A stretch of DNA of 64,000 bases from Actinomycetota bacterium (GTDB lineage: Bacteria > Actinomycetota > Acidimicrobiia > Acidimicrobiales > JAJPHD01), in NCBI GenBank assembly GCA_021325455.1, contig JAJPHD010000026.1, positions 62,001 through 126,000 on the forward strand, given 5' to 3'. Below, in pieces: positions 9,703-27,124 of the stretch (positions are counted from its first letter, which is position 1; each line of letters opens with the position of its first letter). The translations under genes were made by a program, and so were the position numbers. The notes beneath the pieces are model-generated. The model ran no database searches, had not been told where the DNA came from, and saw only the letters and a list, made by a program, of their open reading frames with translations.

Positions 9703-9776
9703 GGGGGCGTAGCTCAGTTGGTAGAGCGCTTGACTGGCAGTCAAGAGGTTCGTGGGTTCGAGTCCCATCGCCTCCA
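9703..9776 (+). tRNA. tRNA-Ala(GGC)
   Basis: A cloverleaf can be drawn by hand: acceptor GGGGGCG/CGCCTCC with the alanine-identity G3:U70 wobble pair, D-stem GCTC/GAGC, anticodon stem CTTGA/TCAAG with loop CTGGCAG (anticodon GGC, reading GCC), a 6-nt variable region and T-arm GTGGG-TTCGAGT-CCCAT. The discriminator base is A. CCA is not encoded (CGA follows). A TAAGGT hexamer at 9686-9691 could be its -10 box. Confidence 0.95.
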
Positions 9777-9798
9777 CGACCACGGGCCGCAGCTCGGG

Positions 9799-9968: not shown

Positions 9969-11099
9969 ATGCTCGACCTGGGCCAACTCGAGCTGGTCGA
10001 CCACCATTGCCACGGTGTCGTCCGGCGTGAGCTCGGGCCGGCCGAGTTCGAGACCTACCTGAGCGAGTCCGGAGCCCCCCCGCCCGGCCTGAGCAACTTC
10101 GACACCCAGCTGGGCTTCAGCCTCCGGCGGTGGTGTGCTCCGGTCCTCGGGCTGGAGGCGCACGCCTCACCGGAGGCTTACCTTCGCCGTCGTGGCGAGC
10201 TCGGGACCGGCGAGGTGACCCGGCTCCTCCTCGGGGCATCCGGGATCACCACCTTCCTGGTGGACACCGGCTATCGGTCGCAGGAGTTGCTGAGCCCTCA
10301 GGAGCTGGCCGGGCTGGCAGGAGGATGGGCTGGAGAGGTGGTGCGCCTGGAGGCCCTGGCGGAGGAAGTGGCCGCCGCCGGCACCAGCGCCACGGGGTTC
10401 TCAGCCGCCTTCGACGATGCCCTGGACCTGGCCTGTGCCACCGCCGTGGGGCTCAAGTCGGTCGTGGCCTACCGCTACGGGCTCGATTTCGACCCCCATC
10501 CCCCCGCCCCGGTGGAGGTCGCCGCCGCCGCTGGAGAATGGCTCCGGCGGGGCGAGGGGGCCTCGGCCTTCCGCCTCGACCACCCCGTGCTGCTCCGCCA
10601 CGTAATCTGGGCGGGCGCCAACCGGGGCCTGCCGCTGCAGTTCCACGTCGGCTACGGGGACCCCGACCTGCGGCTCCATCGCTCGGACCCGGCCCTGCTC
10701 ACCGATTTCCTGGTGGCGAGCCAGCCCCTGGGCACGCCGGTCATGCTCTTGCACTGCTACCCGTACCATCGGCAGGCGGGGTACCTCGCTGCCGTATTCC
10801 CCCACGTCTACATGGATCTGGGCTTGGCCCTCAACTACGTGGGCCCTCGCGCCTCCGCCCTGTTGGCCGAGGCCCTCGAGCTGACGCCCTTCGACAAGAT
10901 GCTCTTCTCCTCGGACGCCTTCGGCCTCCCCGAGCTCTACTACCTGGGGGCCACCTCGTTCCGCCAGGGGCTGGCCGAGGTGCTCGGCTCCTGGGTGGCC
11001 GAGGGACGCTGGTCCGCAGCTGATGCCGAGCGGGTGGCGGCAACCATCGGCAGCGGGACCGCCCGGCGGCTCTATGCCACCGGGCCCCACGGGCGCTGA
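9969..11099 (+). CDS. Amidohydrolase-2 family protein (FluG/glutamine-synthetase-associated type)
   Basis: 376 residues. It has the metal-dependent hydrolase opening VDHHCHG, then GLPLQFHVGYGDPDLRL, MLLHCYPYHRQAGYLAAVFPHVY(M)D and LFSSDAFGLPELYYLG near the C terminus. This is the pattern of the amidohydrolase domain that is fused to glutamine synthetase in FluG-like proteins and also occurs alone. The expected chemistry is hydrolysis of a C-N bond or decarboxylation in a TIM barrel; the substrate is unknown. The ATG at 9969 is chosen over an upstream in-frame ATG because AGAGAGG sits at proper spacing and conserved sequence begins here. It heads a run of peptidase/amidohydrolase genes, which supports a role in amide catabolism. 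Confidence 0.8.
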   Translation: MLDLGQLELVDHHCHGVVRRELGPAEFETYLSESGAPPPGLSNFDTQLGFSLRRWCAPVLGLEAHASPEAYLRRRGELGTGEVTRLLLGASGITTFLVDTGYRSQELLSPQELAGLAGGWAGEVVRLEALAEEVAAAGTSATGFSAAFDDALDLACATAVGLKSVVAYRYGLDFDPHPPAPVEVAAAAGEWLRRGEGASAFRLDHPVLLRHVIWAGANRGLPLQFHVGYGDPDLRLHRSDPALLTDFLVASQPLGTPVMLLHCYPYHRQAGYLAAVFPHVYMDLGLALNYVGPRASALLAEALELTPFDKMLFSSDAFGLPELYYLGATSFRQGLAEVLGSWVAEGRWSAADAERVAATIGSGTARRLYATGPHGR

Positions 11100-11174
11100 C
11101 CGCCGCCGCTGCCCGGCTCCCGCTCGGCCCGGCTTCAATGCCGGAGCTGCGATGGTGGCTACATTCGTCCTCCT

Positions 11175-12275
11175 ATGGGAACCGGTCCTTACATCTTCGA
11201 CGGGCACAACGACCTGCCCTGGGCCATGCGGAACCTGTGCGACTACGACCTCGACCAGGTGGAGCTGGACGGGAACGTGCCGGACCTGCAGACCGACCTC
11301 CCCCGATTGCGCGCAGGAGGTGTCGGGGCCCAGTTCTGGTCGCTCTACGTCCCCTGCTCGCTGGCCGACGACAAGGCGGTGACGGCGACCCTGGAGCAGG
11401 TCGACTTCGTCCGGCGTTTCGCGGCCCGCTATCCCGAGCACCTGGGCCTCGCAGCCACCGCCGACGAAGTGGAGCAGGTCGCCGCCTCGGGGCGTATCGC
11501 TTGCCTCATGGGCATCGAGGGAGGCCATTCGATCGCGGGGTCTCTCGGAGCGCTACGGGCCCTTCACCACCTCGGGGCGCGCTACATGACCCTCACTCAC
11601 AATGCCAACGTCCCCTGGGCAGACTCCGCGACCGACACGCCGGCCATCGGGGGCCTCAACCACTTCGGGCTCGAGGTCGTGGCCGAGATGAACCGGATGG
11701 GGATGTTCGTGGACCTGAGCCATGTCTCGCCCGGTGTCATGCGCGATGCCCTGGACGCCAGCCGGGCCCCGGTCATCTTCAGCCACAGCAGCGCCCGGGA
11801 GCTCTGTGACAACCCACGGAACGTCCCCGACGACGTGCTGGCCCGGCTGCCTGCCAACGGCGGGGTGTGCATGGTGACGTTCGTGCCCGCCTTCGTCTCC
11901 CAGGGGGTGTCGACCTGGATGGCGGAGTGCAAGCAGGCGGTGCAGGAGGCGGGCGGCGATCCACGCAACGTCGACGAGGTGCAAGCGGTGATGAAGGAGC
12001 GTCAGGCCACCGACCCGCCGCCCCGTTGCACGGTCCAGGACGTGGCCGACCACGTCGACCATGTGCGTGCAGTGGCTGGCGTGGACCATGTGGGCCTGGG
12101 CGGGGACTACGACGGTTCGTCGAAGTTCCCCGAGGGAATGCCGGACGTCTCCTCCTATCCCCTTCTCCTCGATGTGCTGGCTGAAAGAGGCTGGTCCGCC
12201 ACCGACCTCACCAAGCTGGCCCACGCCAATGTGCTGCGGGCCATGAGGGACATGGAGGCCGTGGCCAGGAGCTAG
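11175..12275 (+). CDS. Membrane-dipeptidase family (M19) metallopeptidase
   Basis: 366 residues of the renal-dipeptidase family, dinuclear-zinc enzymes that cleave dipeptides, including ones with a C-terminal D-residue. Ligand motifs are visible in order: FDGHNDLP near residue 9, IEGGHSI near 115, LTHNANVPWADS, DLSHVS near 180, FSHSSAREL near 200 and LGGDYDG near 300. There is no signal peptide or lipid-anchor site, so it should be cytoplasmic. A TACATT box 9 nt before the ATG suggests its own promoter. With the downstream M55 D-aminopeptidase it suggests use of D-amino-acid peptides, but the substrate is not readable from sequence. Confidence 0.9.
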   Translation: MGTGPYIFDGHNDLPWAMRNLCDYDLDQVELDGNVPDLQTDLPRLRAGGVGAQFWSLYVPCSLADDKAVTATLEQVDFVRRFAARYPEHLGLAATADEVEQVAASGRIACLMGIEGGHSIAGSLGALRALHHLGARYMTLTHNANVPWADSATDTPAIGGLNHFGLEVVAEMNRMGMFVDLSHVSPGVMRDALDASRAPVIFSHSSARELCDNPRNVPDDVLARLPANGGVCMVTFVPAFVSQGVSTWMAECKQAVQEAGGDPRNVDEVQAVMKERQATDPPPRCTVQDVADHVDHVRAVAGVDHVGLGGDYDGSSKFPEGMPDVSSYPLLLDVLAERGWSATDLTKLAHANVLRAMRDMEAVARS

Positions 12276-12392
12276 CCGAGGTCGGCGCCTTCGGATCGGG
12301 TCGTCCGGGGCAGCGACCATCACGCTCTGGCACACGCACTCCGGCGAGCAGATCGAGGTCACGGTCGGCGCCGCCTCGTGCTCGACCTCTGC

Positions 12393-13235
12393 CTAGCGTC
12401 TCCCGGGAGCTCGGCCGCTGCTCTTGCGGCCGACGAGGTGAAAGGCTCGGCTGAGCTGGCGGTAGGGGTCCCGGCGGCTCGCTTCGAGCTCCACCGCTGC
12501 CGCCCCCTCCCATTCCGCCAGAGCCACCTTGGCACCGCTGAGCTCCAGCCAGTCGACGAAAAGCCAGACCCCGTACCACTCCAGCGGCTCTACACCCGAT
12601 CTGCGCATCAGGTCGCTCAGCTCGTCCACGGTGTCGGCCCGCCCTGGAACCCCCAGCACCCCGATCTCGCTCCGGGCATCGAACGAGGCCAGGGCGTCAG
12701 CCCACCGCCGCTCCATGGCTGGCCGCACCGCCATGGCTCTGGCGTTGCCCGTCATCACCGACACCACCCCTCCGCCATCGGCGCAACGGCACAGCTGGTC
12801 GAGGAGGGGCCCCGACTGGGCCAGGTAGCCGAGCACGCCGTGGCACAGCACACCGGCATAGCGCCGGCCGCCCACTGCCTCCTCGGCGTGGAGCCCGTCC
12901 GCCTCCAGCAGGCGCACCCGGCGCCGGGCCTCGGCGCTCAGCCCCTGCAGCCGCTGGCGCGCCTTGCCCAGCATCGCCGGGGAGGGATCGAGCAGGGTGA
13001 CGTCGTAGCCGGCCTGGGCCAGGGGGAACGACTGGTGGCCCGCTCCACCCCCGACATCCAGCACGGACGCCGGGGGTGGCACCAGGTGCTCCATGAGCTG
13101 ATGGTGGACCACGTAGGTGCGCACATAGCCCTTGACGGACGCATACGCCTCGTCGGCGAACTTGTCGGCCAGGCCGGCCCAAGCATCCCCGGGCACGAGC
13201 GCAATGTAACTGCCGACCGCAGACCGCGCTGGCAA
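12393..13235 (-). CDS. Class I SAM-dependent methyltransferase, CmoM/SmtA-like
   Basis: 280 residues with a Rossmann methyltransferase core: motif I VLDVGGGAGHQSFPLA near residues 57-72, the acidic strand LLDPSPAML, and GGGVVSVMTGNARA. The flanking text (LADKFADEAYASVKGYVR at the start, AVELEASRRDPYRQLSRAFHLVGRK at the end) resembles CmoM, which methyl-esterifies carboxymethoxyuridine in tRNA wobble position 34 of gammaproteobacteria. Whether an actinobacterial homolog does this is unknown, and a small-molecule methyltransferase is possible. The start is TTG, with no better alternative nearby. The gene runs against its neighbours. The 117-base gap on its 3' side holds no supported gene. Confidence 0.75.
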   Translation of the reverse strand: MPARSAVGSYIALVPGDAWAGLADKFADEAYASVKGYVRTYVVHHQLMEHLVPPPASVLDVGGGAGHQSFPLAQAGYDVTLLDPSPAMLGKARQRLQGLSAEARRRVRLLEADGLHAEEAVGGRRYAGVLCHGVLGYLAQSGPLLDQLCRCADGGGVVSVMTGNARAMAVRPAMERRWADALASFDARSEIGVLGVPGRADTVDELSDLMRRSGVEPLEWYGVWLFVDWLELSGAKVALAEWEGAAAVELEASRRDPYRQLSRAFHLVGRKSSGRAPGRR

Positions 13236-13336
13236 GGCGGGCCTAGGCTCACGCCAGAGGGTCGTCCGGCCCTCCTGCCGGGGCGTTCCGGTGTGCCCCT
13301 CCAGGCCGGCCGGACAGACGAAAGGAGGAGGAGCAC

Positions 13337-14575
13337 GTGAGCCGTACGGTCCTTTCGAACGCCGTCCTGGTGGACGGGACAGGCGGCGAGCCGGTCGAAG
13401 GTGCCCACCTGGTCGTGGAGGACGGGCGTATCGCCGACATATCCCGCCGCCAGGTGGGCGAAGCGGACCGCTCCATCGACTGCGCGGGGCGGACCGTGCT
13501 GCCGGGGCTGATCGATTGCCATGTGCACATCGGCGCCGTGGAGGAGAACATCACCGAGCAGCAGCGGCGCTATTTCGCCTCCGAGCTGGCCCTCCGGATG
13601 GGGTCCGTCCTCACCCAGATCCTCCACCAGGGGTTCACCACGGTCAGGGACGCCGGGGGCGCCGACGCCGGGTTCCGCCGGGCGATCGAAGGGGGCGTGG
13701 TGGCTGGCCCCAGGCTCCTGGTGTCGGGCCGGCCCCTGTCCCAGACCGGCGGCCACGGGGACAGCAGGCTGGCGACCGAGCCAGGCGGGGCCCCTTCTCC
13801 GAGTTGGCCCCAGGTCGGCATGGTGAAGTGGATCGCCGACGGCCCCGACGAGGTGCGCAAGGCGGTGAGGGAGAACCTCCGCCAGGGTGTCGACCAGATC
13901 AAGGTGATGGCCAGCGGGGGGGTCATGTCGCCCACCGACAAGCTCACCTCGGTCCAGTACTCCCTCGAGGAGCTGCAGGTGGCGGTGGAGACAGCGGCTG
14001 CCGCCGGGACCTACGTCCTTGCTCACGCCTACACGCCAGCGGCCATCCGCAACTGCGTGCAGGCAGGAGTACGGTCCATCGAGCACGGCAACTTCCTGGA
14101 CGCCGGCACCGCCGCCCTCATGGCCGAGCGGGGGACGTTCCTGGTGCCCACTCTGGTCACCTACGAGAAGCTGTACGAGGAAGGGGAGCGTCGCGGGTTG
14201 CCCAGGGAGAGCCTGGAGAAGGCCGCCCAGGTCTACGATGCCGGCCTGGAAGGTCTCCGCCGGGCCGAGGAAGCCGGTGTCAGGATCGCCTCCGGCTCTG
14301 ACCTTCTCGGCGGTTGGGCCGTGCACAAGGCCAGGGAGCTGCAGATAAAGGCCCAGGTGCTGGGCCCGATGGGGGCGATCGTGGCCGCCACCAGGAGCTC
14401 AGCCGAGCTGCTGGGCCTGGATGGGGAGGTGGGAACCCTGGAGGTGGGCAAGCAGGCCGACCTGCTGGTGGTGGACGGGGACCCGCTGGAGGACCTCTCC
14501 TTGCTGGCGAAGCCCAAGTGCCTGGCCGTCATCATGAAGGGCGGGGTCACCTATCGAGATGACCTGGGCAGCTGA
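13337..14575 (+). CDS. Amidohydrolase, imidazolonepropionase/Xaa-Pro-dipeptidase-like
   Basis: 412 residues. The composite layout is typical of this amidohydrolase group: a beta-sandwich N terminus, then GLIDCHVHIG near residue 60 (HxH metal site), a QIKVMASGGVMSP segment carrying the usual metal-bridging lysine region, LAHAYTP, SIEHGNFLD, the aspartate block ASGSDLLGG, and a closing sandwich strand (LEVGKQADLLVVDGDPLEDL). Relatives hydrolyse imidazolones, N-acyl amino acids or Xaa-Pro peptides. Nothing here decides which. The GTG start follows a strong AAAGGAGGAG Shine-Dalgarno. It is probably co-transcribed with the M55 gene 54 nt downstream. Confidence 0.85.
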   Translation: MSRTVLSNAVLVDGTGGEPVEGAHLVVEDGRIADISRRQVGEADRSIDCAGRTVLPGLIDCHVHIGAVEENITEQQRRYFASELALRMGSVLTQILHQGFTTVRDAGGADAGFRRAIEGGVVAGPRLLVSGRPLSQTGGHGDSRLATEPGGAPSPSWPQVGMVKWIADGPDEVRKAVRENLRQGVDQIKVMASGGVMSPTDKLTSVQYSLEELQVAVETAAAAGTYVLAHAYTPAAIRNCVQAGVRSIEHGNFLDAGTAALMAERGTFLVPTLVTYEKLYEEGERRGLPRESLEKAAQVYDAGLEGLRRAEEAGVRIASGSDLLGGWAVHKARELQIKAQVLGPMGAIVAATRSSAELLGLDGEVGTLEVGKQADLLVVDGDPLEDLSLLAKPKCLAVIMKGGVTYRDDLGS

Positions 14576-14629
14576 GGAGCGCAGCACGGACCCGCGACGG
14601 TGGGGCCGGCCCGACTCGCAGGAGCGCGC

Positions 14630-15472
14630 ATGAAGGTGCACATATCGATGGACATGGAGGGCGTGGCCGGGGTGGCAGCTGGTGCCGACACCACCCTCGG
14701 CGCCCCCCACTACGAGTACTGCCGCCGTCTCATGACCGGTGAGTGCAACGCCGCCATCGCCGGTTGCTTCGATGCGGGGGCTGCCGAGGTGGTGGTGAAC
14801 GACTCCCACGGCACCATGCTCAACCTCTTGCAGGAGGAGCTCGACGAGCGGGCCAGGGTCGTCCGGGGCAGGCCCAAGCCCCTCGGGATGATGCAGGCGC
14901 TGGACCGGGGCATGGATGCCACCTTGTTCATCGGCTACCACGCTGCTGCCGGCCATGGTGACGGGGTGCTCAACCACACGATGAGGGGGCGCGACCTCCT
15001 GAGGGTCTCCCTGAACGGCGAGATGGCCGGAGAGCTGAGGCTGAACGCCGCCATGGCAGGCTGGCACGGGGTCCCCGTGGCCCTGGTCTCGGGGGACGAC
15101 GTGGTTTGCCGAGAAGCCCGTGAGACCCTGCCCGGCACCGGAGTCGTGGAGGTGAAGGAGGCCATCGACAAGTACACCGCCTTGTCCCTCCATCCCGGCA
15201 GAGCCAGGCAAGCCATACGTCAGGGAGCGGCCTCCGCCCTCGAGCGCCTCGCCGAGATCCGGCCCTACCGGGTGGACCCTCCCTTCGCCCTCAGGATCGA
15301 GTGGAGCTCCACCAGCATTGCCTCTTGGTGTGAAGGTGTCCCCGGAGTGAAGCGGGTCTCCCCCCGGGAGGTCGAGTACGTCTCCAGCGACTATCCGGAG
15401 GTCTACCGCCTGCTCAGGGTCCTCCTGATGGTGGCCAGCGCCTCCACCGGGACGCCTCACTCCTACGACTGA
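14630..15472 (+). CDS. M55 family D-aminopeptidase (DppA-like)
   Basis: 280 residues. The zinc-binding start is MKVHISMDMEGVAGV (the DMEG signature), followed by VNDSHGTMLN near residue 60, GYHAAAGHGDGVLNHT near 105 and MAGELRLNAAMAGWHGVPVALVSGDD. These are the hallmarks of DppA, a decameric D-aminopeptidase that releases N-terminal D-residues from D-Ala-D-Ala and similar peptides. The ATG at 14630 is chosen over an upstream frame start because the DMEG strand must be N-terminal and AGGAG precedes it. Together with the M19 dipeptidase, the MFS gene and the peptide-type binding protein nearby, it points to scavenging of D-peptides or peptidoglycan-derived peptides. Confidence 0.9.
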   Translation: MKVHISMDMEGVAGVAAGADTTLGAPHYEYCRRLMTGECNAAIAGCFDAGAAEVVVNDSHGTMLNLLQEELDERARVVRGRPKPLGMMQALDRGMDATLFIGYHAAAGHGDGVLNHTMRGRDLLRVSLNGEMAGELRLNAAMAGWHGVPVALVSGDDVVCREARETLPGTGVVEVKEAIDKYTALSLHPGRARQAIRQGAASALERLAEIRPYRVDPPFALRIEWSSTSIASWCEGVPGVKRVSPREVEYVSSDYPEVYRLLRVLLMVASASTGTPHSYD

Positions 15473-15497
15473 GTGGGGGATCCATGCCCCGCCACGT

Positions 15498-16994
15498 CTA
15501 GGAAGGGCCGACGGCGGGAGGGGGGAAGGCCGGGGTCCCGGCGGGAGGGCCCCGGTGGCCGGAGCCGGTGGCGAACCCCTTGTGCTCGAAGAGGTCGATG
15601 ACCTCGTCCACCGGCAGGCCCTTGGTCTCGGGCAGGAACAGGGCCACGAAGACCAGGGCTGCGACCGACAGGGCGGCGAAGCACACCATGACCCAGGCCA
15701 ACCCGATCGTCTTCTGCCAGGCCGGGAAGACCTCGATGATGACGAAGTTGGCCACCCAGTCGGCTATGGCCCCTATGGCCGCGGCCCGGCCCCGGACGGC
15801 GGTGGGGAAGACTTCGCCCTGGATCAGCCAACCGGTGCCGCCGACCCCGATGGCGAAGGAGGCGATGAACAGGTCGAGCCCGATCATGAGCACGATGATC
15901 TTGGGCAGCCCGGCCGCGAAGGCAAGCCCCCCTGCGCCCATCAGCATGAAGGCCGTCATGCCCAGGTAGCCGCCGAGGGCCAGCGGCCTCCGTCCCCGGC
16001 CGTCGATGAGTCGGAAGGCGAAATAGGTGGCCACCACGTTCACCGCACCCATGATCGCCGTCACCTCCACGCCGGCAATGGCAGCTGACACGGCGCTCGC
16101 CCCGGGCCCGTGGAAGTAGGGAGAGAGGATGTGCGGTCCGTAGTAGAAGGGGATGTTGATGCCGGTGATCTGCTGGAATATGAAGAAGACGCAGACCACG
16201 ACCAAGGCTCGCTTGACCCCGTAGGTCCACGAGGTCTGCTGCTTCTCGGAGCGTTGGCTCTCCTGGCGCACGAGCTGGTCGGCAGTCTGGCGCACCTGCT
16301 CCTCGGTGACGTCCAGCTCGAGCATGGCCAGGGACCTGCGAGCCTTGTCGAACTGCCCCTGGCGCATCAGCCACCTGGGGGACTCGGGCATCTTGGTCCG
16401 CAGCGCCAGCCCGATGACTGCCGGGATGGCCCCGAGGCCCAGCATGAGCCTCCAGTCTGCACCGGTGGCCGAGTGGGGAGCGGCCGAGAGGATGATGATG
16501 GCGACGATGTAGGAGGCGAGGATCCCGATCGTGATCATCCACTGCTGGATGATGCTCAGGGCTCCCCGCCTGCCCCGGGGGGCGAACTCGGCTATGTAGG
16601 CGGTGGCGATGGCCGAGTCGGCCCCGACGGCCAGGCCGATGAGGGTGCGGGAGGCGAGGAGCATGTCGGCGTTGACCGTGAGCGCGGACAGGATGGCCCC
16701 GACGGCGTAGATGAGGGCGTCGGCGATCAGCAGCGACTTGCGCCCGAACCTGTCGGTCAGGGGCCCGGCGATGAGGGCGCCCACCGCGGCCCCGATGGAT
16801 GCCCCGGCCACCAGGTAACCCGTGGCGAAGCTGGACAGGTGGTAGGGGATGAAGCCCAGGGCCGAGCCGATGTCGGAGGTGTCGTAGCCGAACAGGAAAC
16901 CCCCGATGCAGGCCAGAAGGGCGAGGTACCAGTAGAAGGAAGTCGGGGGGCGGCTGTCGAGGTTCTCGAGTACCCCCGGTGCGACCTCGCTCAT
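15498..16994 (-). CDS. MFS transporter, sugar-porter (SP) family
   Basis: 498 residues with about 12 hydrophobic segments. SP-family signatures are present: GFLFGYDTSDIGSAL in the first helix, DRFGRK between helices 2 and 3, PESPRWLM before the central loop, GRGRRPL in the second half and PETKG at the end. SP proteins are usually proton symporters for sugars but also carry organic acids, and this branch's cargo is unknown. The ATG at 16994 has AGAGGAGG upstream. The longer upstream frame lacks a membrane-protein character. It lies downstream of the binding-protein/hyu genes on the same strand with a 164-base gap that holds no gene. Confidence 0.88.
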   Translation of the reverse strand: MSEVAPGVLENLDSRPPTSFYWYLALLACIGGFLFGYDTSDIGSALGFIPYHLSSFATGYLVAGASIGAAVGALIAGPLTDRFGRKSLLIADALIYAVGAILSALTVNADMLLASRTLIGLAVGADSAIATAYIAEFAPRGRRGALSIIQQWMITIGILASYIVAIIILSAAPHSATGADWRLMLGLGAIPAVIGLALRTKMPESPRWLMRQGQFDKARRSLAMLELDVTEEQVRQTADQLVRQESQRSEKQQTSWTYGVKRALVVVCVFFIFQQITGINIPFYYGPHILSPYFHGPGASAVSAAIAGVEVTAIMGAVNVVATYFAFRLIDGRGRRPLALGGYLGMTAFMLMGAGGLAFAAGLPKIIVLMIGLDLFIASFAIGVGGTGWLIQGEVFPTAVRGRAAAIGAIADWVANFVIIEVFPAWQKTIGLAWVMVCFAALSVAALVFVALFLPETKGLPVDEVIDLFEHKGFATGSGHRGPPAGTPAFPPPAVGPS

Positions 16995-17158
16995 GACTCG
17001 GCCTCCTCTCACGCTGGGGTGCTCATCACAGCGCGCCCGGCCCCCCGTGTCAATCCGTGCCCCGGCCAAGTCAGTGCCGAGGGAGCTAGCCGATCGTGCG
17101 CTCAAGAGTCAGCGTCGTGGCCGAGCTCCTGCCTCTCCCCCCGCCTTTCGACAGCTGC

Positions 17159-18997: not shown

Positions 18998-19016
18998 GGT
19001 CTGCCTCCGTCCTCTC

Positions 19017-20579
19017 CTAGAGCCCTCCGAGCGAGCCTGCGGCCTTGACCCGGATGCGTACCGCCTGGGTGGTCAGGTAGGCGAGGGGAACCTCCTCCAT
19101 CTCGACCACGCTCACGGTGTCGAGCTCCGCCCCGGCGGCCACCGCCCGCTCCGTAGCGTCCTCACAGGCCTCTCTCAGAGCCGCCTCCCTGCCCCCCGCG
19201 CCCAGGTGGAAGATCCGGTCCACCTGCCCGCTCACCGAGGCGATGGCGGCCCCGATGGCATTGGCCACGTCGAAGTCGTGGGGACGGGTGATCGCGCTCA
19301 CACCCGGTATCTGCTCGGGGATCAGTACGCTCCCTCCCCCCACCGCTATCAGGGGACGATCGCCCTTGGACGTCTTGATCCTGTCGACAGCATCGGCCAG
19401 CATGAAGTCCACCCGCTGCAGGGCCTCAGTCAGGACCCGCCGTCGGTTCTCGGGCAACGGCTTGCTGCCCAGCCGCACCCGCCCCCCGGCCACGGCAGCG
19501 TCTGTGAGGGTGGGGGTGCGCCCCCCGAAGACCAGGGCCTCCTCCTGCAGGCGGTACCCGACGCTCTGCGGGCCCACCTGGACCCGGCCGTCAGGCCCGG
19601 CGGCCACGACCGTTCCTCCGCCGAGGGCCAAGGTGATGAGGTCGGGCATACGGAAGTTGGTCCGGATCCCCCCTATCTCCACGCCCTGGGAGGACTCCCG
19701 GGGAAAGCCGTTGGCGACCACCCCCACATCGGTAGACGTCCCGCCCACGTCCACCACGAGGGCGTCGTCCACCCCCGCCAGGAAGGCCGCCCCCCGGATG
19801 CTGTTGGCCGGCCCGCTGCCGATCGTGAACACGGGGTACTGCAGGGCATAGTCCAAGGCCATGAGCGTTCCGTCGTTCTGGGCGAAGTAGGTGACGGGAT
19901 TGAGTCCGTGGGCCGAGAGCGAGCGCTCGAGGGCGGCGATGACGTCCCTCGCCACCCGGCCCAGGGCGGCGTTGAGCACGGTGGCGTTCTCCCGCTCCAG
20001 CAGGCCGATGGACCCCACCCGGTGGCTGAGGGACACGGGCACATCCCCCAGCTCCTTGCGGACGACCTCCTCAGCCATGAGCTCATGGTCGGGGAGGACG
20101 GGGGCGAACACGCTGGCGATCGCCACCCCTTCCGCCCGCTCGCCCACCCGGGCGAGGAACCGGGCCACCCCATCGTGGTCGAAGGGGGCCAGCTCCCGGC
20201 CATCCAGCTCGATACCCCCTCCCACGATGGCCTCCCCCACCGAGACCGCCTGGCGCAGGTCGGCGGGCCAGCCGAACAGCGGGCGCACGGCATGGGTGGC
20301 CGGGCTCCCGATCCGGATGACGGCCACGCGCTGGAGATTGCGCCGCTCCAGGACGGCATTGGTGGCATGAGTCGTCCCGAGCATCAGGTGGGTCACCCGG
20401 CTCCGGTCGATCCCCGACTCACCGAGGGCTACTCCGATCGCCCTGCCTATGCCATCGGCCACCTCCGGGCTGGTGGGCACCTTGGCCTTGGCCACCAGGG
20501 TGTCGTCTCGGTCCAGGACCACGGCATCGGTGTTGGTCCCTCCGACATCCACCCCGATCCGGTGATCAAGCGGTGGCAT
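19017..20579 (-). CDS. Hydantoinase/oxoprolinase family protein, HyuA-like (short form)
   Basis: 520 residues of the ASKHA-fold hydantoinase A/oxoprolinase family. Nucleotide-site motifs are visible: IGVDVGGTNTDAVVLD at the N terminus, LGTTHATNAVL, and DVGGTSTDVGVV mid-protein, with GPANSIRGAAFLAG between them. These enzymes couple ATP hydrolysis to opening of cyclic amides (hydantoin, 5-oxoproline) or to carboxylation of ketones. This copy is shorter than the 691-residue HyuA upstream and lacks its C-terminal extension. The ATG at 20579 is chosen because it overlaps the DUF917 stop region by 14 nt, indicating translational coupling. HyuA-short plus DUF917 is a recurring pair in bacteria (and is fused in fungi, from memory). 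Confidence 0.85.
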   Translation of the reverse strand: MPPLDHRIGVDVGGTNTDAVVLDRDDTLVAKAKVPTSPEVADGIGRAIGVALGESGIDRSRVTHLMLGTTHATNAVLERRNLQRVAVIRIGSPATHAVRPLFGWPADLRQAVSVGEAIVGGGIELDGRELAPFDHDGVARFLARVGERAEGVAIASVFAPVLPDHELMAEEVVRKELGDVPVSLSHRVGSIGLLERENATVLNAALGRVARDVIAALERSLSAHGLNPVTYFAQNDGTLMALDYALQYPVFTIGSGPANSIRGAAFLAGVDDALVVDVGGTSTDVGVVANGFPRESSQGVEIGGIRTNFRMPDLITLALGGGTVVAAGPDGRVQVGPQSVGYRLQEEALVFGGRTPTLTDAAVAGGRVRLGSKPLPENRRRVLTEALQRVDFMLADAVDRIKTSKGDRPLIAVGGGSVLIPEQIPGVSAITRPHDFDVANAIGAAIASVSGQVDRIFHLGAGGREAALREACEDATERAVAAGAELDTVSVVEMEEVPLAYLTTQAVRIRVKAAGSLGGL

Positions 20580-21648
20580 CGGCCAGCTCCTCCACGGGCA
20601 CGTAGTCGATGTCATAGCCAAAGGCTCGGGGCCCCACCATCTCCAAGCCCGACGGGCTCCGCCAGATCGGGTCGCAGGGGAAGGCGACCACCGTGACCCG
20701 CTGGCCGTAGCGGACCCTCTCGGTGGCTATGGCATCGGCCGTCTCGCTGTCGACCACCGATATGAGGTCGGGTACCGAGGCCAGCATCCGTCCTGCCTCC
20801 AGGGCGATCAGGTTCTCGTTCTGGATCTCCAGGCGCAGGAGCCGGCCGGTATCCCCGGCCAGTCCCTCGATGACCACCGACCCCCGCACGAATCCTCTGG
20901 TGGTCCTGCGCTCCACGTCGGAGACCTTGCCCTCGATCAGGCGGAAGGCTCCCACCGCACCCACCAGCGCCTCGACGGGGTCGTGCTCGGCCTCCCGGAC
21001 CGCCCTTCCCACCTCGATGGCCCGGGAGAGGGAACCCTGCACCGTGGCCCCGGCTGCCTCGGCCACCGTCAGGCAGTACTCGGCCGAGGCGGCCGAGCCG
21101 CCCAGCTCCACCGCCGCTGCCCGGGCCAGGCGCTCCATCCAGCGCCCGTCGAGGGGTCGGAACACGATCAGGTTGCCCCTCTCATCGGTCATCACCCCCG
21201 GGCTGGGCGAGATGCCGGCCAGGTGCATGGTGACCTGGGGCACCTCGGGGAAAGCCCGCCCCATGCCGTCAGCGTCCACCAGAGGCAGTCCCATCCGGGC
21301 ACTCCAGGCGATGGGCAGCAGCCCGTTTGAGCCCCCCAGCTCGGCGCACATGAGGGCCACCACAGGGCGGCCCCACAGCCTCTCCACCTCGTCCCGCAGG
21401 CGACGGCCCTCCTCCCCGTTCTCGAACTTCTCGATGTGGACGGTGGGCGCCCCGATCATGCCGCACGGCATGAGCAGGCCTTCGGCGGGAAGCTCGTCAA
21501 GTCCCATGAGCGGCACCGGGCCGAAGTCCTCCACCGCCTGAAGAGCCATCAAAAGCCCGATGGCCGGGTCCCCACCCCCACCGGTGCCGAACACCGAGCA
21601 TCCGAGGGCCAGAGCCGGAAGCGTGGATGCGTCCAGCGAGAGCCTCAT
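20566..21648 (-). CDS. DUF917 family protein (S-methyl-thiohydantoin-desulfurase-type domain)
   Basis: 360 residues. The start region SLDASTLPALALGCSVFGTGGGGDP is the usual opening of DUF917 proteins, followed by GMIGAPTVHIEK and a C-terminal half ending FGYDIDYVPVEEL. The family is now labelled after an S-methyl-thiohydantoin desulfurase, which would fit its hydantoinase neighbours, but I cannot tell whether this member has that activity. The ATG at 21648 overlaps the hyuB stop in the form ATGA, so I prefer it to an in-frame start three codons upstream. It is the third gene of the four-gene overlapping operon. Confidence 0.82.
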   Translation of the reverse strand: MRLSLDASTLPALALGCSVFGTGGGGDPAIGLLMALQAVEDFGPVPLMGLDELPAEGLLMPCGMIGAPTVHIEKFENGEEGRRLRDEVERLWGRPVVALMCAELGGSNGLLPIAWSARMGLPLVDADGMGRAFPEVPQVTMHLAGISPSPGVMTDERGNLIVFRPLDGRWMERLARAAAVELGGSAASAEYCLTVAEAAGATVQGSLSRAIEVGRAVREAEHDPVEALVGAVGAFRLIEGKVSDVERRTTRGFVRGSVVIEGLAGDTGRLLRLEIQNENLIALEAGRMLASVPDLISVVDSETADAIATERVRYGQRVTVVAFPCDPIWRSPSGLEMVGPRAFGYDIDYVPVEELADATA

Positions 21649-23336
21649 CCGTCCCACCCGTACACGTGACGAGCCTCCTCCTCGGTGACGAGGCCATCGG
21701 CCAGGTCTTCGGCAACAAGGGACCGCGGGCGGCTCAAGGGATCCCCGTAACCCCCTCCCGTCCCGGTCACCAGGCGCACCAGGTCCCCCCGGCGGAGGGC
21801 CATGCGGGCCACCTTCCCGAAGCGCCTTGGCTCCGATCCGTCGGCCGGCACCACCTCCACGTAGTTGCAGGAGCCGGCCCGCCCGCCGGCCACCCCCCAG
21901 GGGGGGAACCGGTGGCGGCCGAAGGCAACCGTGAGCAAGGCCTGGTCAGAGAGGACCCGGTACTCGCGCCGGAGGCCCCGTCCGCCCCGGTGGTGCCCCG
22001 CCCCCGCCCCCTCCACCACGTCCAGGCCGAACCGCTCGACCAGTATCCCGTAGCGCTGCTCGGCCACCTCCACCGGGATCACATACGTCTCCCCGTCCCC
22101 CACCGATACGAGGCCATGCTGGCCGTCAGCCGTTCCTGTTGCCCCCCAACCACCCGCCTGGGGCTCGACCAGCAAGGCGGGCTCCCCGGTGTCGGGATGC
22201 TCGAGGGCCACGCTGGTAGAGCAGACCGAGAGGAAGCTGCCGGCCGGCAGGAGGTCGGGGTAGGCGGGGGCCAAGGCCTTCCAGACCAGGTCGGTCGCCA
22301 TCTCCGTGGCCTCGAAGTAGGCGGCCACGGCGGCAGGGCGCTCGGCAGTGAACACCGTGCCCGACGGGCAGACCACGCTGAGGGGCCGGAACCAGCCGTC
22401 GTTGGCCGGCTCTTGCGGGTCGGTCAGCGCCTTGTAGACCGTTCGCACCCCCGATACGAGGCCACTTCTCGAGCAGTTGACCGGTCCTGGGACCTGGGGA
22501 TGGCTGCCTGAGAAGTCGCAGCGGACGCCTGACCCGTCCACCTCGACGCGGACCCGGACCGGGAAGGGGCCGTGGCCGAGGCCGTCGTCGTCGATCCCGT
22601 CCTCGGCCTCGAACACGCCCGGGCGCAACCGGCCAAGGGCCACCCGGGCCAGGTGCTCCCCGCGGTCCAGGGCCTGGCCCATGGCCCCCGTCACCACCTC
22701 GGTGCCGTAGCGCCGGCACAGCTCCAGGAGGCGGCGCTCGGCGACCTCCAGGCAGGCGACGTGGGCCCGCAGGTCACCTTCGACCATGTCGGGCAGTCGG
22801 CTGTTGGCCCTGATCACTGCCAACAGGTCCCGGTCCCATTCACCCCCCCTCACCACCCGGACGAAGGGGAGTTGCAATCCCTCTTGGAACACCTCGGTTG
22901 AATCAGCGGTCCACGAGCCCGGGTCCTTGCCGCCCACCTCCGTGAAATGCCCCTTGGCGGCGGCCAGGCCCACCAGGTGGTCTCCGAAGAACACGGGGCG
23001 CACCACGGCCACGTCGGACAGGTGGGTCCCCCCACCCGTATAGGGGTCGTTGGCTGCCACGACGTCACCGGGCCGGAGGTCGGGGGACCGTTGCAGGGCC
23101 TCTCTCACCACCTCGCCGAGGGGGCCGAGGAACCCAGCCACCCCGTTCCCCTGGCAGACAAGCTCGCCGCGGGCGTCCGTGAGGCCCACGGCGAAGTCGA
23201 GCACCTCGTAGACGACCGGGCTCTGCGAGGTTCGCTGCAGGGACACGAACATCTCGTCGGCGATCGCAAGGAAAGCCTCCCGGAGCACGTCGGCCGTGAA
23301 CCGGTCCGGGGAGGGGGCTTCCCATGCCATCCTCAC
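21645..23336 (-). CDS. hyuB: Hydantoinase B/oxoprolinase family protein
   Basis: 563 residues that match HyuB throughout: FLAIADEMFVSLQRTSQSPVVYEVLDFAVGL at the start, GDVVAANDPYTGGGTHLSDVAVV, KGHFTEVGG, FDFSGSHPQ-type text (CDFSGSHPQVPGPVN), VEPQAGGWGATGTADGQ and a glycine-rich C terminus (TGTGGGYGDPLSRP). HyuB pairs with HyuA to make the ATP-dependent cyclic-amidase or carboxylase complex. The start overlaps the hyuA stop (GTGA), with an ATG two codons further in as an alternative. The length is normal for the family. Together with hyuA it forms a complete HyuAB pair; the following HyuA-short/DUF917 pair may act on the same substrate class. Confidence 0.92.
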   Translation of the reverse strand: MRMAWEAPSPDRFTADVLREAFLAIADEMFVSLQRTSQSPVVYEVLDFAVGLTDARGELVCQGNGVAGFLGPLGEVVREALQRSPDLRPGDVVAANDPYTGGGTHLSDVAVVRPVFFGDHLVGLAAAKGHFTEVGGKDPGSWTADSTEVFQEGLQLPFVRVVRGGEWDRDLLAVIRANSRLPDMVEGDLRAHVACLEVAERRLLELCRRYGTEVVTGAMGQALDRGEHLARVALGRLRPGVFEAEDGIDDDGLGHGPFPVRVRVEVDGSGVRCDFSGSHPQVPGPVNCSRSGLVSGVRTVYKALTDPQEPANDGWFRPLSVVCPSGTVFTAERPAAVAAYFEATEMATDLVWKALAPAYPDLLPAGSFLSVCSTSVALEHPDTGEPALLVEPQAGGWGATGTADGQHGLVSVGDGETYVIPVEVAEQRYGILVERFGLDVVEGAGAGHHRGGRGLRREYRVLSDQALLTVAFGRHRFPPWGVAGGRAGSCNYVEVVPADGSEPRRFGKVARMALRRGDLVRLVTGTGGGYGDPLSRPRSLVAEDLADGLVTEEEARHVYGWDG

Positions 23337-25408
23337 GCCTCCTCCAGGATGAGGTTGCCGTCGGGGTCAGCCCAGGCCCGCTGCCCCGGAAGGACAAGGG
23401 TGGTAGCGGCCGGCTCCTCCACGATGCACGGCCCCTGCAGCTCCCTCCCGGGCTCCAGCCCTGATCTCCCCAGCACGGCCACCTCGACCACGCCGCCTTG
23501 CTGGTCGAGGTCCACCACCCGCCTGTCCTCGGCCGGCTCACCGACCCCTTCCTGGAGCGCCTGTCGCGAGGCGCCCCAAGGCACGGGATCGGCGGGCGCG
23601 GTCGCCGACACCCGCGCTCCCACCATCTCCAGGGGGACTCCGGGGAGCTCGAGGGCATAAGCCTGGCGGGAGGTGCGGTCGAAGTCCTCCCGCAGGCCGC
23701 TGACCAGAGCCTCCCCCTCGACCCCCGGACGGAGCGGGATCTCCAACGTGTGCTCCTGGCCCAGGTAGCGCAGCTCGACGTGGCGCTCCAGCGAGGCACC
23801 CGTGCCGGCGGCTCCCAGCTCCTCCAGGGCCTCCGTGTCCAGGGAGGCCATCAGGTCCTGGAGGGGCCCCGGCGCCAGCCGCCCCACCCGGGTCCGCACG
23901 GCGTCAGCTCGCAGCCCTCCGGCCAGCATGCCGAAGGCCGAGAAGTGGCCCGGGCCGGGAGGGACCGCCACCCGGGGGATCCCGAGATCCCGGGCGAGCA
24001 GGGCAGCGTGGAGCGGGCCGGCACCCCCGTGGGCGACCAGGGTGAAGCGCCGGGGGTCATGCCCCCGCCGGAGGGTCACGAGGCGGAGGGCCCGGGTCAT
24101 CTGGGCCACCGCCACCCTGAGCACCCCCCGGGCCGCCTCGCCGGCCCCGACCCCCATCTGCTGACCCAGACGGGCCAGGGCCTCCTCAGCCGCCTGCAGG
24201 TCCAGGCCCATGGCACCGCCCAGGAAGTAGAGGGGATCGAGCCGGCCGGTCAGCAGGTTGGCGTCGGTGAGGGTTGGGGCGGTCCCACCCCGCCCATAGC
24301 AAGCCGGGCCAGGGTCGGCCCCGGCGCTGGAAGGGCCGACGTGCAGCCCAGCGGCGGGGTCCACCCAGGCCACCGAGCCTCCCCCCGCCCCGATCTCGAC
24401 TATGTCCACGATCGGGGCCTGCACCGGGTAGCCGGCGCTGAGCGGGCTGGCCTCGATCCGGTATCCGCGCTCCACCCGCACCCCGCCGCCCAGGACGGCC
24501 GAGGTCTTGGCCGTCGTGCCGCCGATGTCGAGGGACAGGATGTCCCCTGCGCCCATCCGTTTCCCCAGCTGTGCGGAGGCCACCACGCCCGCCACCGGTC
24601 CCGACTCGAGCAGACGGATGGGGTTGGCCCTCGCCCTGTCGAACGAGCACACCCCTCCGTTGGAGCTCATGGCATAGCTGGGGGCCGCCACTCCCTCGGC
24701 CCGCAGGCGCCTGGCCAGGGAGCCCAGGTACGTCGAGACCACGGGTTGGGCGTAGGCGGAGAGCACGGTGGTGCTGGCCCTCTCGTACTCCCGCCACTGC
24801 CCGCTCACCTGGTGGGACGCCAGGACGGGGACATCGAGGCGCTCCCGGAGAAGGGCCGCGGCCCGGGCCTCGTGCCGGGGATTGGCCCAGGAGTGGAGGA
24901 AGCACACCGCCACCGCCTCGACGCCCGCTGCCCGGATGGGCTCCACCAGCTCCTCCACCGCCCGGTCCTCCAGGGGCTGGAGGACCCGGCCCCGGTAGGA
25001 GATCCGCTCGGCCACCTCGTAGCAGAGACGGCGGGGGACCAGAGGCCGGGGCTTGCGATAGGCCAGGTTGTACAGGTCGGGGCGGTTGGCTCGCCCGATC
25101 TCCAGCAGGTCACGGAAGCCCTCGGTGGTGACAAGGGCTGTCCGGGCCCCCCGGCGCTCCGTGATGGCGTTGATCACGACCGTGGTCCCGTGCACGAAGA
25201 CCGAGACCGTGCTGGCCGGAAGGCCGGCCACCTTCAACGCCGCCATGACGCCGTCCTCCAAGCCCCCCGGGGTGGTGTCGGCCTTGGAGCGGGCCACGCG
25301 GGCAGAGCGCCCCTCTCCTACCACGGCGACGAGGTCGGTGAAGGTCCCCCCGATGTCGACCGCCAGCCGGCACCGCTCTCCTCTGGGCCCGGCGGCAGTG
25401 TCCTTCAC
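23333..25408 (-). CDS. hyuA: Hydantoinase A/oxoprolinase family protein
   Basis: 691 residues, full length for HyuA. N-terminal LAVDIGGTFTDLVAV, VFVHGTTVVINAITER and a long DLYNLAYRKPRPLVPR segment mark the Hydant_A_N domain. LSLDIGGTTAKTSAVLGG, IVDIVEIGAGGGSVAWVD and LVAHGGAGPLHA mark the main domain, and a C-terminal beta domain ends near LEEA. Together with HyuB it would hydrolyse a 5-membered cyclic amide or imide at the expense of ATP. GTG start, with a GGAGG rather far (about 15 nt) upstream. First gene of the operon, divergent from the PucR-type regulator with a 15-bp palindrome in the shared region. Confidence 0.92.
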   Translation of the reverse strand: MKDTAAGPRGERCRLAVDIGGTFTDLVAVVGEGRSARVARSKADTTPGGLEDGVMAALKVAGLPASTVSVFVHGTTVVINAITERRGARTALVTTEGFRDLLEIGRANRPDLYNLAYRKPRPLVPRRLCYEVAERISYRGRVLQPLEDRAVEELVEPIRAAGVEAVAVCFLHSWANPRHEARAAALLRERLDVPVLASHQVSGQWREYERASTTVLSAYAQPVVSTYLGSLARRLRAEGVAAPSYAMSSNGGVCSFDRARANPIRLLESGPVAGVVASAQLGKRMGAGDILSLDIGGTTAKTSAVLGGGVRVERGYRIEASPLSAGYPVQAPIVDIVEIGAGGGSVAWVDPAAGLHVGPSSAGADPGPACYGRGGTAPTLTDANLLTGRLDPLYFLGGAMGLDLQAAEEALARLGQQMGVGAGEAARGVLRVAVAQMTRALRLVTLRRGHDPRRFTLVAHGGAGPLHAALLARDLGIPRVAVPPGPGHFSAFGMLAGGLRADAVRTRVGRLAPGPLQDLMASLDTEALEELGAAGTGASLERHVELRYLGQEHTLEIPLRPGVEGEALVSGLREDFDRTSRQAYALELPGVPLEMVGARVSATAPADPVPWGASRQALQEGVGEPAEDRRVVDLDQQGGVVEVAVLGRSGLEPGRELQGPCIVEEPAATTLVLPGQRAWADPDGNLILEEA

Positions 25409-25474
25409 CCCATGATCATCTTCCCTCCTGCCCCAGACGGGAATGGGCGGATCATACGAAGGTTGGCCCTCTCA

Positions 25475-25489
25475 TGTGCAGATGGCACA
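25475..25489. promoter_or_regulatory. Palindrome TGTGC-N5-GCACA between hyuA and the PucR gene (candidate operator)
   Basis: TGTGCAGATGGCACA has two perfect 5-bp arms around a 5-bp centre. It lies in the divergent intergenic region, about 65 bp upstream of hyuA and 9 bp before the preferred GTG of the regulator. Arms one helical turn apart (10 bp centre to centre) suit a dimeric helix-turn-helix protein, so autoregulation plus control of hyu is a reasonable inference. A single copy in a GC-rich genome could be chance. Confidence 0.45.
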
Positions 25490-25497
25490 CTGCAGGG

Positions 25498-26985
25498 GTG
25501 GCCACAGTCGACGAGCTCGTGGGGGCGGCTTCCCTGGCCGGCCTGGCCCGGGTCACCCCCTGGGGCGGCGGCCGGGAGGTCACCAGGGTGAGCCTGGCCG
25601 AGAGCTTTGACGAGCTGGCCGGCTGCGAGGCCTCCTCCCTGGTGCTCCTGACCCGAACCTGCTCGACCCAGGCCACCGACTACCGGATCGACATGGCCCT
25701 GCGGAGCGCCGGGGCGAGAGGAGCCAGCGCCGTGGCCGCCGTCCTGCCCTCTCGCTGGCGGCCACCCACGACGGCCTCGGACATCGCCCGGCGCTGCGAC
25801 CTGGCCCTCGTATGGGTTCCCCAGGGGACGGACCTCGCTTGGCTCATCCAGGCCATGGCGAAGGAGCTGGCCGGCGGCCCGGGGGCGGCGTTGGAGCGGG
25901 CCCGGGCCGCCCTGGCCGCCCTGGAGAGCGCCGAGGCGGAAGGGGCAGGGCCCGGGGACCTGGCTCGTGTGGCCGGGCTGGCGCTGGGCGTGAGGATCGA
26001 GTGGCCCGGCGACGGGGAGCTGGCGGTGCCAGTCATGGCCGGAGGTCACCCTCAGGGTTACCTCGCCGCCACCGGCGTGGGTGGTGACCTGGCCACGGCC
26101 ACCATGCTTGTGCTCCACGCCGCGGCGGGAGCGGCCTCGCGCCGGCTCGCCGCCATCCAGCGGGAGCGGGAGATCCCCACCCGCTCCCGAGGCGAGCTGG
26201 TGAGCGCCCTCCTCGTCTCCGACCCGACCAGGCGGGAGGAGATGCTCGCCGAGGCCCGCCGCCTGGGCATCCCGGTGGACGGCTGGCACGTTGCCGTGCA
26301 CCTGGAGCTGTCAGCTGGTGCCACCGAGGACGAGATCGGGCGGTTCGAGCTGGTGGAGGCGGCCGGCCAGGTGGCCCTCCAGGCCTGCCAGGCAAGCGGA
26401 GGCAACTGGTTCCTCACCCGCTCGGGCCCGGATGTGGTGCTGGTGCGGATGGCCTTGGGCGCCCCCGATCCGCAAACCGCCACCCGGGTGATGCGCAGCG
26501 TAGGCCTGGCGCTGCAGCGCATCGAGGAGCGCTTCCCCCAGGCAGGGGCCCGGGCCGGCGTCGGCGGAGCTCACGATGGGGCGCTCGGGCTAAGGGCTTC
26601 GGTCACCGAGGCCAGGGCGGTGCTGGCCGCAGCCCGGGCGGCGGGACGGGCTGCCCCGGTGGTGGCCTTCGATGCCTTCGGGATAGAGCGCACCCTCGTC
26701 GAGTGGTACGCATCGGACACAGCTCGCCGGGCGGTGCGGGACCAGCTCGGGCCCCTCGAGGCCCTGGGGGGAGCCAGGGCGGAGTCAGCCATACTCACCC
26801 TCAAGACCTACCTGGACGAGCAGGGCTCGACAGTCCGCACGGCAAGGGCCCTCCACCTGCACCGCAACGCCGTCACCCGCCGCCTGGCCCGGATCACTGC
26901 CCTGCTCGGGACCGACCTCTCCGACCCCGACCAGCGCCTGGCCCTGCAGCTGGCCTGCCGGGCCCGCCTGTTGGGCCAGGCCTAG
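25498..26985 (+). CDS. PucR-family transcriptional regulator
   Basis: About 495 residues. The N-terminal part (VATVDELVGAASLAGLARVTPWGGG) is the PucR sensor-like domain, the middle (about 230-370) resembles the GGDEF-like CdaR segment, and the C terminus carries the PucR helix-turn-helix (LKTYLDEQGSTVRTARALHLHRNAVTRRLARI). PucR-type regulators control purine, allantoin, hydantoin and amino-acid catabolism, which fits the divergent hyu operon. I prefer the GTG at 25498 because the ATG at 25474 would place a palindromic operator-like sequence inside the gene and the family's start pattern begins at the GTG. The ribosome site is weak in both cases. Confidence 0.88.
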   Translation: MATVDELVGAASLAGLARVTPWGGGREVTRVSLAESFDELAGCEASSLVLLTRTCSTQATDYRIDMALRSAGARGASAVAAVLPSRWRPPTTASDIARRCDLALVWVPQGTDLAWLIQAMAKELAGGPGAALERARAALAALESAEAEGAGPGDLARVAGLALGVRIEWPGDGELAVPVMAGGHPQGYLAATGVGGDLATATMLVLHAAAGAASRRLAAIQREREIPTRSRGELVSALLVSDPTRREEMLAEARRLGIPVDGWHVAVHLELSAGATEDEIGRFELVEAAGQVALQACQASGGNWFLTRSGPDVVLVRMALGAPDPQTATRVMRSVGLALQRIEERFPQAGARAGVGGAHDGALGLRASVTEARAVLAAARAAGRAAPVVAFDAFGIERTLVEWYASDTARRAVRDQLGPLEALGGARAESAILTLKTYLDEQGSTVRTARALHLHRNAVTRRLARITALLGTDLSDPDQRLALQLACRARLLGQA

Positions 26986-27055
26986 GCGGGCCGTCCTGGG
27001 CCCCTCCCGAACGGCACCCACCTCAATCCCCCTGGACTTGCCCCTGGCCGAGACC

Positions 27056-27124
27056 CTTGAGCTATGCTCCCCCCGCCTGTCCCGGGCCTGGGAACCGGGA
27101 GGCGAAAAAGCAGGGGGTCTCAAG
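27056..27124 (+). promoter_or_regulatory. Highly structured 5' leader abutting the start codon (possible RNA switch)
   Basis: Four nested helices can be drawn by hand: CTTGAG (27056-27061) with CTCAAG (27119-27124); CCCCC (27069-27073) with GGGGG (27113-27117); CGCC (27074-27077) with GGCG (27101-27104); TCCCGG (27080-27085) with CCGGGA (27095-27100), capped by a 9-nt loop. A-rich AAAAAGCA lies unpaired between them, and its AGCA could instead pair with TGCT at 27065-27068. The outer helix touches the ATG and the GGGGG strand is the only ribosome-site-like sequence, so folding should block translation. I could not match it to a known riboswitch consensus. A protein-binding leader or chance GC pairing are alternatives. 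Confidence 0.45.

Follow-up and report, generated by a model that had tools for sequence, protein, structure and literature searches.

A 2024 survey reported that DUF917 proteins, hydantoin racemases, Opp/Dpp transporters and peptidases are enriched around genes resembling those of cyclodipeptide oxidases (CDOs), and proposed a hydantoinase activity for DUF917 (PMC11055893). In caprolactamase, four metal ligands of the CapB subunit are sensitive to mutation (PMC8453981). A 2013 study found it unclear which enzymes hydrolyze cyclic dipeptides in soil bacteria, with Rhizobium, Leifsonia and Microbacterium among the active genera (PMC3852281), and our search of the open-access literature retrieved no later identification of such hydrolases. 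Here, we analyzed a 64,000-nucleotide (nt) stretch of an Acidimicrobiales genome (assembly GCA_021325455.1, contig JAJPHD010000026.1, positions 62,001 to 126,000; hereafter, the window; host genome of 2.95 Mb on 28 contigs, 96% complete), in which positions 9969 to 26985 hold an operon of hydantoinase-type (hyu) and DUF917 genes beside several peptidase and amidohydrolase genes. An initial annotation had read these 17 kb as one pathway for the import and opening of a cyclic amide and the cleavage of its linear or D-configured product. We favor, with moderate confidence in the explanation as a whole, two separate and apparently unrelated units: a left peptide-breaking block and a right hyu/DUF917 operon. 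What stands of the initial reading is the right half as a real, recurrent unit for a small cyclic amide; the single 17-kb pathway does not.

A recurrent operon with a DUF917–short HyuA pair

The operon runs on the minus strand from 25408 to 17159 in the order long hyuA, hyuB, DUF917, short hyuA (hyuA2) and SBP_bac_5. Its open reading frames (ORFs) overlap by 4 nt (long hyuA/hyuB), 13 nt (hyuB/DUF917) and 56 nt (DUF917/short hyuA), with a divergently oriented PucR-type gene 65 nt upstream. Every gene that had been listed between 9969 and 26985 is present near its assigned place, has a coding-type G+C content at third codon positions and gives a clear family match in Pfam profile searches; that list had overlooked a methyltransferase gene in the left block and included a major facilitator superfamily (MFS) carrier with only a loose link to the operon. 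The genes of the right half are as follows:

25474–26985, plus strand: PucR-type regulator (HTH_30 and GGDEF_2), divergent from the operon
23333–25408, minus strand: long HyuA, ATP-binding subunit (Hydantoinase_A and Hydant_A_N, 298 and 170 bits)
21645–23336, minus strand: HyuB, metal-binding hydrolase subunit (Hydantoinase_B, 541 bits)
20566–21657, minus strand: DUF917, in a family that Pfam now names S-Me-THD-like (PF06032 and PF20906)
19017–20621, minus strand: short HyuA, or HyuA2 (N-terminal domain and 176 of the 291 positions of Hydantoinase_A)
17159–18997, minus strand: SBP_bac_5 binding lipoprotein (148 bits), 19 nt after short hyuA
15498–17105, minus strand: ORF of an MFS sugar-porter-type carrier (Sugar_tr/MFS, 322 bits), likely protein 15498–16994

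The window DUF917 is the sole PF06032 match in its genome and carries both family domains well above the Pfam cut-off of 27 for each (172.6 and 238 bits). When 84,980 species genomes were scanned with this protein, 57 loci were recovered, and a short-HyuA gene adjoins DUF917 in all 57. Because only DUF917 peptides served as queries, the pairing was not selected for, while the scan favors relatives of this DUF917 subfamily. The order of the two genes differs between Actinobacteria and Rhizobiales.

Clustering of the genes within 9 kb of DUF917, followed by Pfam labeling, revealed three architectures. Architecture A, to which the window belongs and which most actinomycete loci share, has a PucR gene diverging from DUF917-hyuA2-SBP_bac_5-OppB; the Opp permease genes follow the binding protein in these relatives, and in one of them (L067) Pfam confirmed the full series of binding protein, OppB, OppC and two ATPases. 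Overall, 12 loci have SBP_bac_5 clustered with DUF917, and nine have an Opp permease. Architecture B, found in Acidimicrobiia and relatives, consists of DUF917-hyuA2-M19 dipeptidase-PucR, often followed by a sugar-type binding protein. The M19 gene directly follows DUF917-hyuA2 in eight clustered Acidimicrobiia-type loci, which come from related metagenome-assembled genomes (MAGs) and are not eight independent events, and the same spacing occurs in four genomes of two other families (G055, G058, G097 and G099). Architecture C, in Rhizobiales, combines a hydantoin racemase, permease and binding-protein genes of another ATP-binding cassette (ABC) importer, hyuA2-DUF917-DUF917 and a MalT-like regulator; an Asp/Glu/hydantoin racemase is present in 25 Rhizobiales loci. 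A PucR homologue lies in 21 of the 27 actinobacterial DUF917 neighborhoods. The Opp-type importer of architecture A and the dipeptidase of architecture B point to a peptide-derived small molecule with a dipeptide-like product, and the racemase of architecture C together with the hydantoinase-type subunits points to a hydantoin or similar ring. The right half (PucR, both hyuA genes, hyuB, DUF917 and the binding protein) is best explained as cyclic-amide handling with peptide-type uptake.

In the DUF917 tree, the window protein falls into an actinomycete clade (support 100/100) with the copies of L013, L014 and L015 and of G091, a genome of its own order, and does not group with the architecture B copies of its own class. 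Of the 118 genomes sampled from the order, only 9 have a DUF917 match, and this patchiness suggests horizontal transfer. In G091, the operon comprises PucR, DUF917, hyuA2 and a binding protein with 61% identity to that of the window.

Several further features of these loci were observed. Loci L025–L036, mostly from Acidimicrobiia MAGs, show DUF917-hyuA2-M19-PucR, often followed by Peripla_BP_4, and four loci have a DAO-type flavin adenine dinucleotide (FAD) oxidoreductase. The Rhizobiales cluster (L031–L066) is uniform, with a diverging nitroreductase-family gene in many loci. Locus L023, from a MAG labeled Bifidobacterium breve, has a DUF917-hyuA2 locus resembling those of freshwater Actinobacteria, and its contig is probably misbinned. 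Among the carriers that can be cultured are Actinomadura mexicana (L069) and Kaistia species (L031 and L047).

The two protein pairs

Long HyuA matched N-methylhydantoinase (7HK5) with 379 bits and the caprolactamase subunit CapA (6YRA) with 336 bits. It has the phosphate loops DIGGTFTD and DIGGT and the adenosine motif GADPGP, as expected of an alpha subunit of this enzyme family. HyuB residues D47, H105, D108 and H130 correspond to the CapB metal ligands D41, H99, D102 and H124, which preserves the D-H-D-H metal site. From these motifs, long HyuA and HyuB are predicted to form a complete ATP-dependent cyclic-amide hydrolase, as part of the explanation favored above. The hyuA-hyuB genes were also found in four other loci (L014, L015, L018 and L067).

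Short HyuA keeps both DxGGT phosphate loops and departs from an ATP-dependent hydantoinase alpha subunit in two respects: the GxxPGP adenosine motif is replaced by a GPxSVGY-type sequence in each of the 52 homologues aligned, and the Pfam scan detects no C-terminal domain (Hydant_A_C). It scored 101 bits against a cut-off of 1000 with the NCBIfam caprolactamase model. Its structure model (mean predicted local distance difference test score, pLDDT, of 88) best matched the alpha subunits of N-methylhydantoinase, acetophenone carboxylase and acetone carboxylase. The DUF917 model (mean pLDDT of 94) matched only 2O3I in the structure search, and given that this sole structural relative is uncharacterized, the fold provides no mechanism. 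Invariant DUF917 residues include E76, E106, N111, D128, R134, E175, E281, N282, Q319 and R320. Based on the universal pairing, we reasonably infer a two-subunit enzyme in which HyuA2 would be the activating subunit and DUF917 would stand in place of HyuB.

Binding proteins and carriers

The SBP_bac_5 protein is a binding lipoprotein, as indicated by its domain score above the cut-off and a lipobox (LSAC). The window genome encodes 30 SBP_bac_5 proteins above the Pfam cut-off and four OppB-type permeases; 5 of the 30 genes lie within 5 kb of such a permease and 25 do not. Thirteen other genomes of the order have 2–17 SBP_bac_5 proteins and 1–7 OppB-type permeases (5 to 3 in G032 and 17 to 5 in G091). 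On a smaller scale, several binding proteins share one permease in Pseudomonas aeruginosa (DppBCDF with DppA1-A5; PMC4206461). The imbalance of 30 to 4 is a separate and easily tested feature of this acidimicrobial lineage.

The MFS carrier passed the sugar-porter model TIGR00879 (303 bits, cut-off 238). Its likely start is the ATG at 16994, behind GAGAGGAGG and 164 nt downstream of the binding-protein stop. Given this gap, which contains a TTGACA hexamer, the gene probably has its own promoter and may be transcribed separately. No homologue of this carrier was found near DUF917 in the 57 loci. We also considered the binding protein and the MFS carrier as a recurring permease-free transport pair, and rejected this idea because no other examined SBP paralogue region has such an MFS homologue and because the carrier probably has its own promoter.

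Predicted function and alternative explanations

We predict that the right unit takes up a small peptide-like ring, either a hydantoin or a cyclic dipeptide, and opens it in an ATP-dependent reaction, and regard this function as probable, though only modestly so. The prediction builds on the gene content, the near-contiguous operon, the universal DUF917–short HyuA pairing, the motifs of long HyuA and HyuB, and the importer or dipeptidase neighbors in relatives; from these we infer the substrate, the reaction of the second pair, the use of a distant permease and the role of PucR. PucR would sense the substrate or a product, while the lipoprotein would capture a small, peptide-derived ring on the outside and pass it to one of the few Opp-type permeases of the genome. 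Inside the cell, HyuA-type subunits would activate the ring carbonyl by phosphorylation, and HyuB would complete ring opening, yielding a linear N-carbamoyl amino acid or a dipeptide. For the second pair, DUF917 would probably complete the opening.

Five observations weigh against this function. No OppB-type permease gene lies beside the window binding protein, the nearest one on its contig being ∼147 kb away. The adenosine motif of short HyuA is gone, and its use of ATP is accordingly uncertain. The PucR sensor-domain match remains below its cut-off (21 vs. 33.5 bits). DUF917-hyuA2 occurs without hyuA-hyuB in both G091 and L013. Finally, the neighbors seen in relatives would suit hydantoins, cyclic dipeptides or other small amides equally well.

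Cyclic dipeptides are a live but unproven candidate substrate, given the neighborhood data and the survey of CDO-like genes cited above. None of the proteins scanned between 7946 and 37177 matched a nitroreductase (CDOA/CDOB-like), so the locus does not qualify as a CDO cluster.

A possible alternative, which we consider less probable, is that the operon acts in purine/pyrimidine catabolism on hydantoin, allantoin or pyrimidine-derived rings and yields N-carbamoyl amino acids without any link to peptides. The PucR-type regulator, the hydantoin racemase of the Rhizobiales version and the position of N-methylhydantoinase as the closest solved relative of HyuAB are all consistent with such a role. 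It is opposed by the SBP_bac_5/Opp importer and M19 dipeptidase neighbors in two actinobacterial architectures, and by the 17-kb island, where no N-carbamoylase or allantoinase was recognized (no other part of the genome was searched).

It is unlikely that long HyuA-HyuB is instead a caprolactamase-like lactamase or a different ATP-dependent ring hydrolase with no relation to the substrate of the DUF917 pair. HyuB does match the NCBIfam CapB model with 243 bits (long HyuA was outside that scan), and several DUF917 operons lack hyuAB; the G091 operon in particular indicates that the long pair is an optional addition. Nevertheless, the caprolactamase cut-off is 1000 bits, and HyuB shows no counterpart of the vicinal cysteine pair of CapB (PMC8453981) at the aligned position.

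We give little credence to the stronger proposal that DUF917 and short HyuA form a nucleotide-dependent ring hydrolase that would be the long-missing bacterial opener of cyclic dipeptides (diketopiperazines), feeding M19-type dipeptidases. Even less probable is that DUF917 is a thiohydantoin or S-methyl-thiohydantoin desulfurase in an ergothioneine-type degradation, with HyuAB opening the resulting hydantoin. Although the current Pfam family name and weak matches to the NCBIfam desulfurase models NF058532 and NF058529 fit this role, the scores of 98 and 85 bits fall far below the curated cut-offs of 450 and 440, and no urocanase-like hydratase gene was recognized in the 17-kb island. Thiohydantoin desulfuration is thus unsupported at the family level.

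The left block and the surroundings of the operon

To the left of the MFS gene lie the left-block genes:

9969–11099, plus strand: Amidohydro_2 protein (PF04909, 47 bits, cut-off 26), 75 nt before the M19 gene
11175–12275, plus strand: M19 dipeptidase (Peptidase_M19, 371 bits)
12393–13235, minus strand: methyltransferase (Methyltransf_12), splitting the block between M19 and the second amidohydrolase
13337–14575, plus strand: Xaa-Pro-dipeptidase-like amidohydrolase (Amidohydro_1, 166 bits), 24 nt before the M55 gene
14600–15472, likely start ATG at 14630, plus strand: M55 D-aminopeptidase (Peptidase_M55, PF04951, 329 bits)

As part of the favored explanation, M19, the Xaa-Pro-like amidohydrolase and M55 would carry out general peptide and D-peptide scavenging and happen to adjoin the operon; at most, they could finish the breakdown of products of the right unit. 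The M55 protein has residues D8, E10, H60 and H104 in place and belongs to PF04951, while its score with the NCBIfam DppA equivalog model (212 bits) is below the cut-off of 430. M55 genes are uncommon: with E below 1e-40, 6 of the 395 genomes of the class have one. Elsewhere than in the window, M55 was never seen near DUF917, either in the 57 DUF917 loci or in the M55 regions viewed. In G091 (L108), M55 lies beside an S66 LD-carboxypeptidase, confirmed by Pfam, and a binding protein, and the second M55 copy of the window genome (L106, contig 10) lies in a region with a binding protein and, by eye, an S66-like gene; these combinations suggest cell-wall peptide reuse. Also by eye, M55 adjoins an asparaginase-type gene in G227 and xanthine-dehydrogenase-type genes in G210 and G165. 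The Xaa-Pro-dipeptidase-like amidohydrolase scored 306 bits with NF051886 (cut-off 500). The first amidohydrolase has homologues in four other genomes of the order, none near DUF917. The nearest homologue of the window M19 in the order (G090, 61% identity) has no DUF917 neighbor, and DUF917-linked M19 genes elsewhere share 28–37% identity with it and accompany a different DUF917 clade.

Least probable of all is that the whole gene set between 9969 and 26985 is one pathway importing a cyclic amide and degrading its linear or D-configured product, and we reject it on the neighborhood data: the genes do lie within 17 kb, and dipeptides could be substrates of M55, M19 and the amidohydrolases, but M55 and the first amidohydrolase are found in none, and the second amidohydrolase in two, of the 57 DUF917 loci; G091, the closest relative with both, has DUF917 on contig 50 and M55 on contigs 80 and 94, one M55 copy being ∼36–40 kb from either end of its contig; G081 has M55 and both amidohydrolases on three contigs; M55 has the other neighbors described above; and the two blocks lie on opposite strands, with the methyltransferase gene interrupting the left one. 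The initial annotation had named neighborhood conservation as a check on its pathway and loss of linkage in relatives as its refutation. The combined gene set does not stay together in relatives, and given that M55 and the amidohydrolases are not kept with DUF917 and that the nearest M19 relative has no DUF917 neighbor, the combined pathway is refuted by that measure.

The methyltransferase scored 81 with the NCBIfam CmoM-like model (cut-off 366). A scan for promoters and terminators gave no result above chance, and a tRNA was the sole match in the structured RNA search. A mobile island at tRNA-Ala(GGC) (9703–9777) was rejected: the scanned genes included no integrase, att-like repeats were lacking, and the window contained no further copy of the tRNA-Ala 3′ end at under 5 mismatches in 20. 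Beyond the PucR gene, an 800-residue protein with a signal-like N-terminus (27038–29437) had only a sub-threshold BNR repeat match, and a trio of genes similar to glycolate oxidase subunits, of which two are FAD-binding and one is iron-sulfur, adjoins the island at 29425–33460.

Significance and comparison with known systems

DUF917 and short HyuA are strictly paired across Actinobacteria and Rhizobiales, and we found no paper establishing a joint reaction. The neighborhood data narrow this pair to small peptide-derived rings and provide clean loci to test. Given that the genera active in the 2013 study are close to groups carrying the pair, the question of cyclic-dipeptide hydrolysis becomes directly testable.

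Long HyuA and HyuB match the ATP-dependent hydantoinase/5-oxoprolinase/caprolactamase family (HyuAB, CapAB and N-methylhydantoinase) over their full length and share its phosphate loops, adenosine motif and D-H-D-H site. In contrast to that family, the window pair shares its operon with DUF917 and an additional, shorter HyuA, and both HyuB and short HyuA score below every curated equivalog cut-off, which leaves the substrate undefined. Like the CDO-like gene clusters, the operon type associates DUF917 with peptide importers, hydantoin racemases and peptidases, whereas the window has no recognized nitroreductase/CDO gene and adds the long hyuA-hyuB pair. The window DUF917 belongs to the same protein family as the S-methyl thiohydantoin and thiohydantoin desulfurases, but scores 4–5 times below their curated cut-offs and is paired with short HyuA. 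Binding proteins outnumber permeases in the window genome as they do in the DppBCDF/DppA1-A5 system, though in far larger number. Finally, the left block shares family membership and main metal ligands with the D-aminopeptidase DppA (MEROPS M55) and renal-type dipeptidase (M19), while its M55 type is unlinked to DUF917 in relatives and its M19 represents a subgroup distant from the DUF917-linked M19 enzymes.

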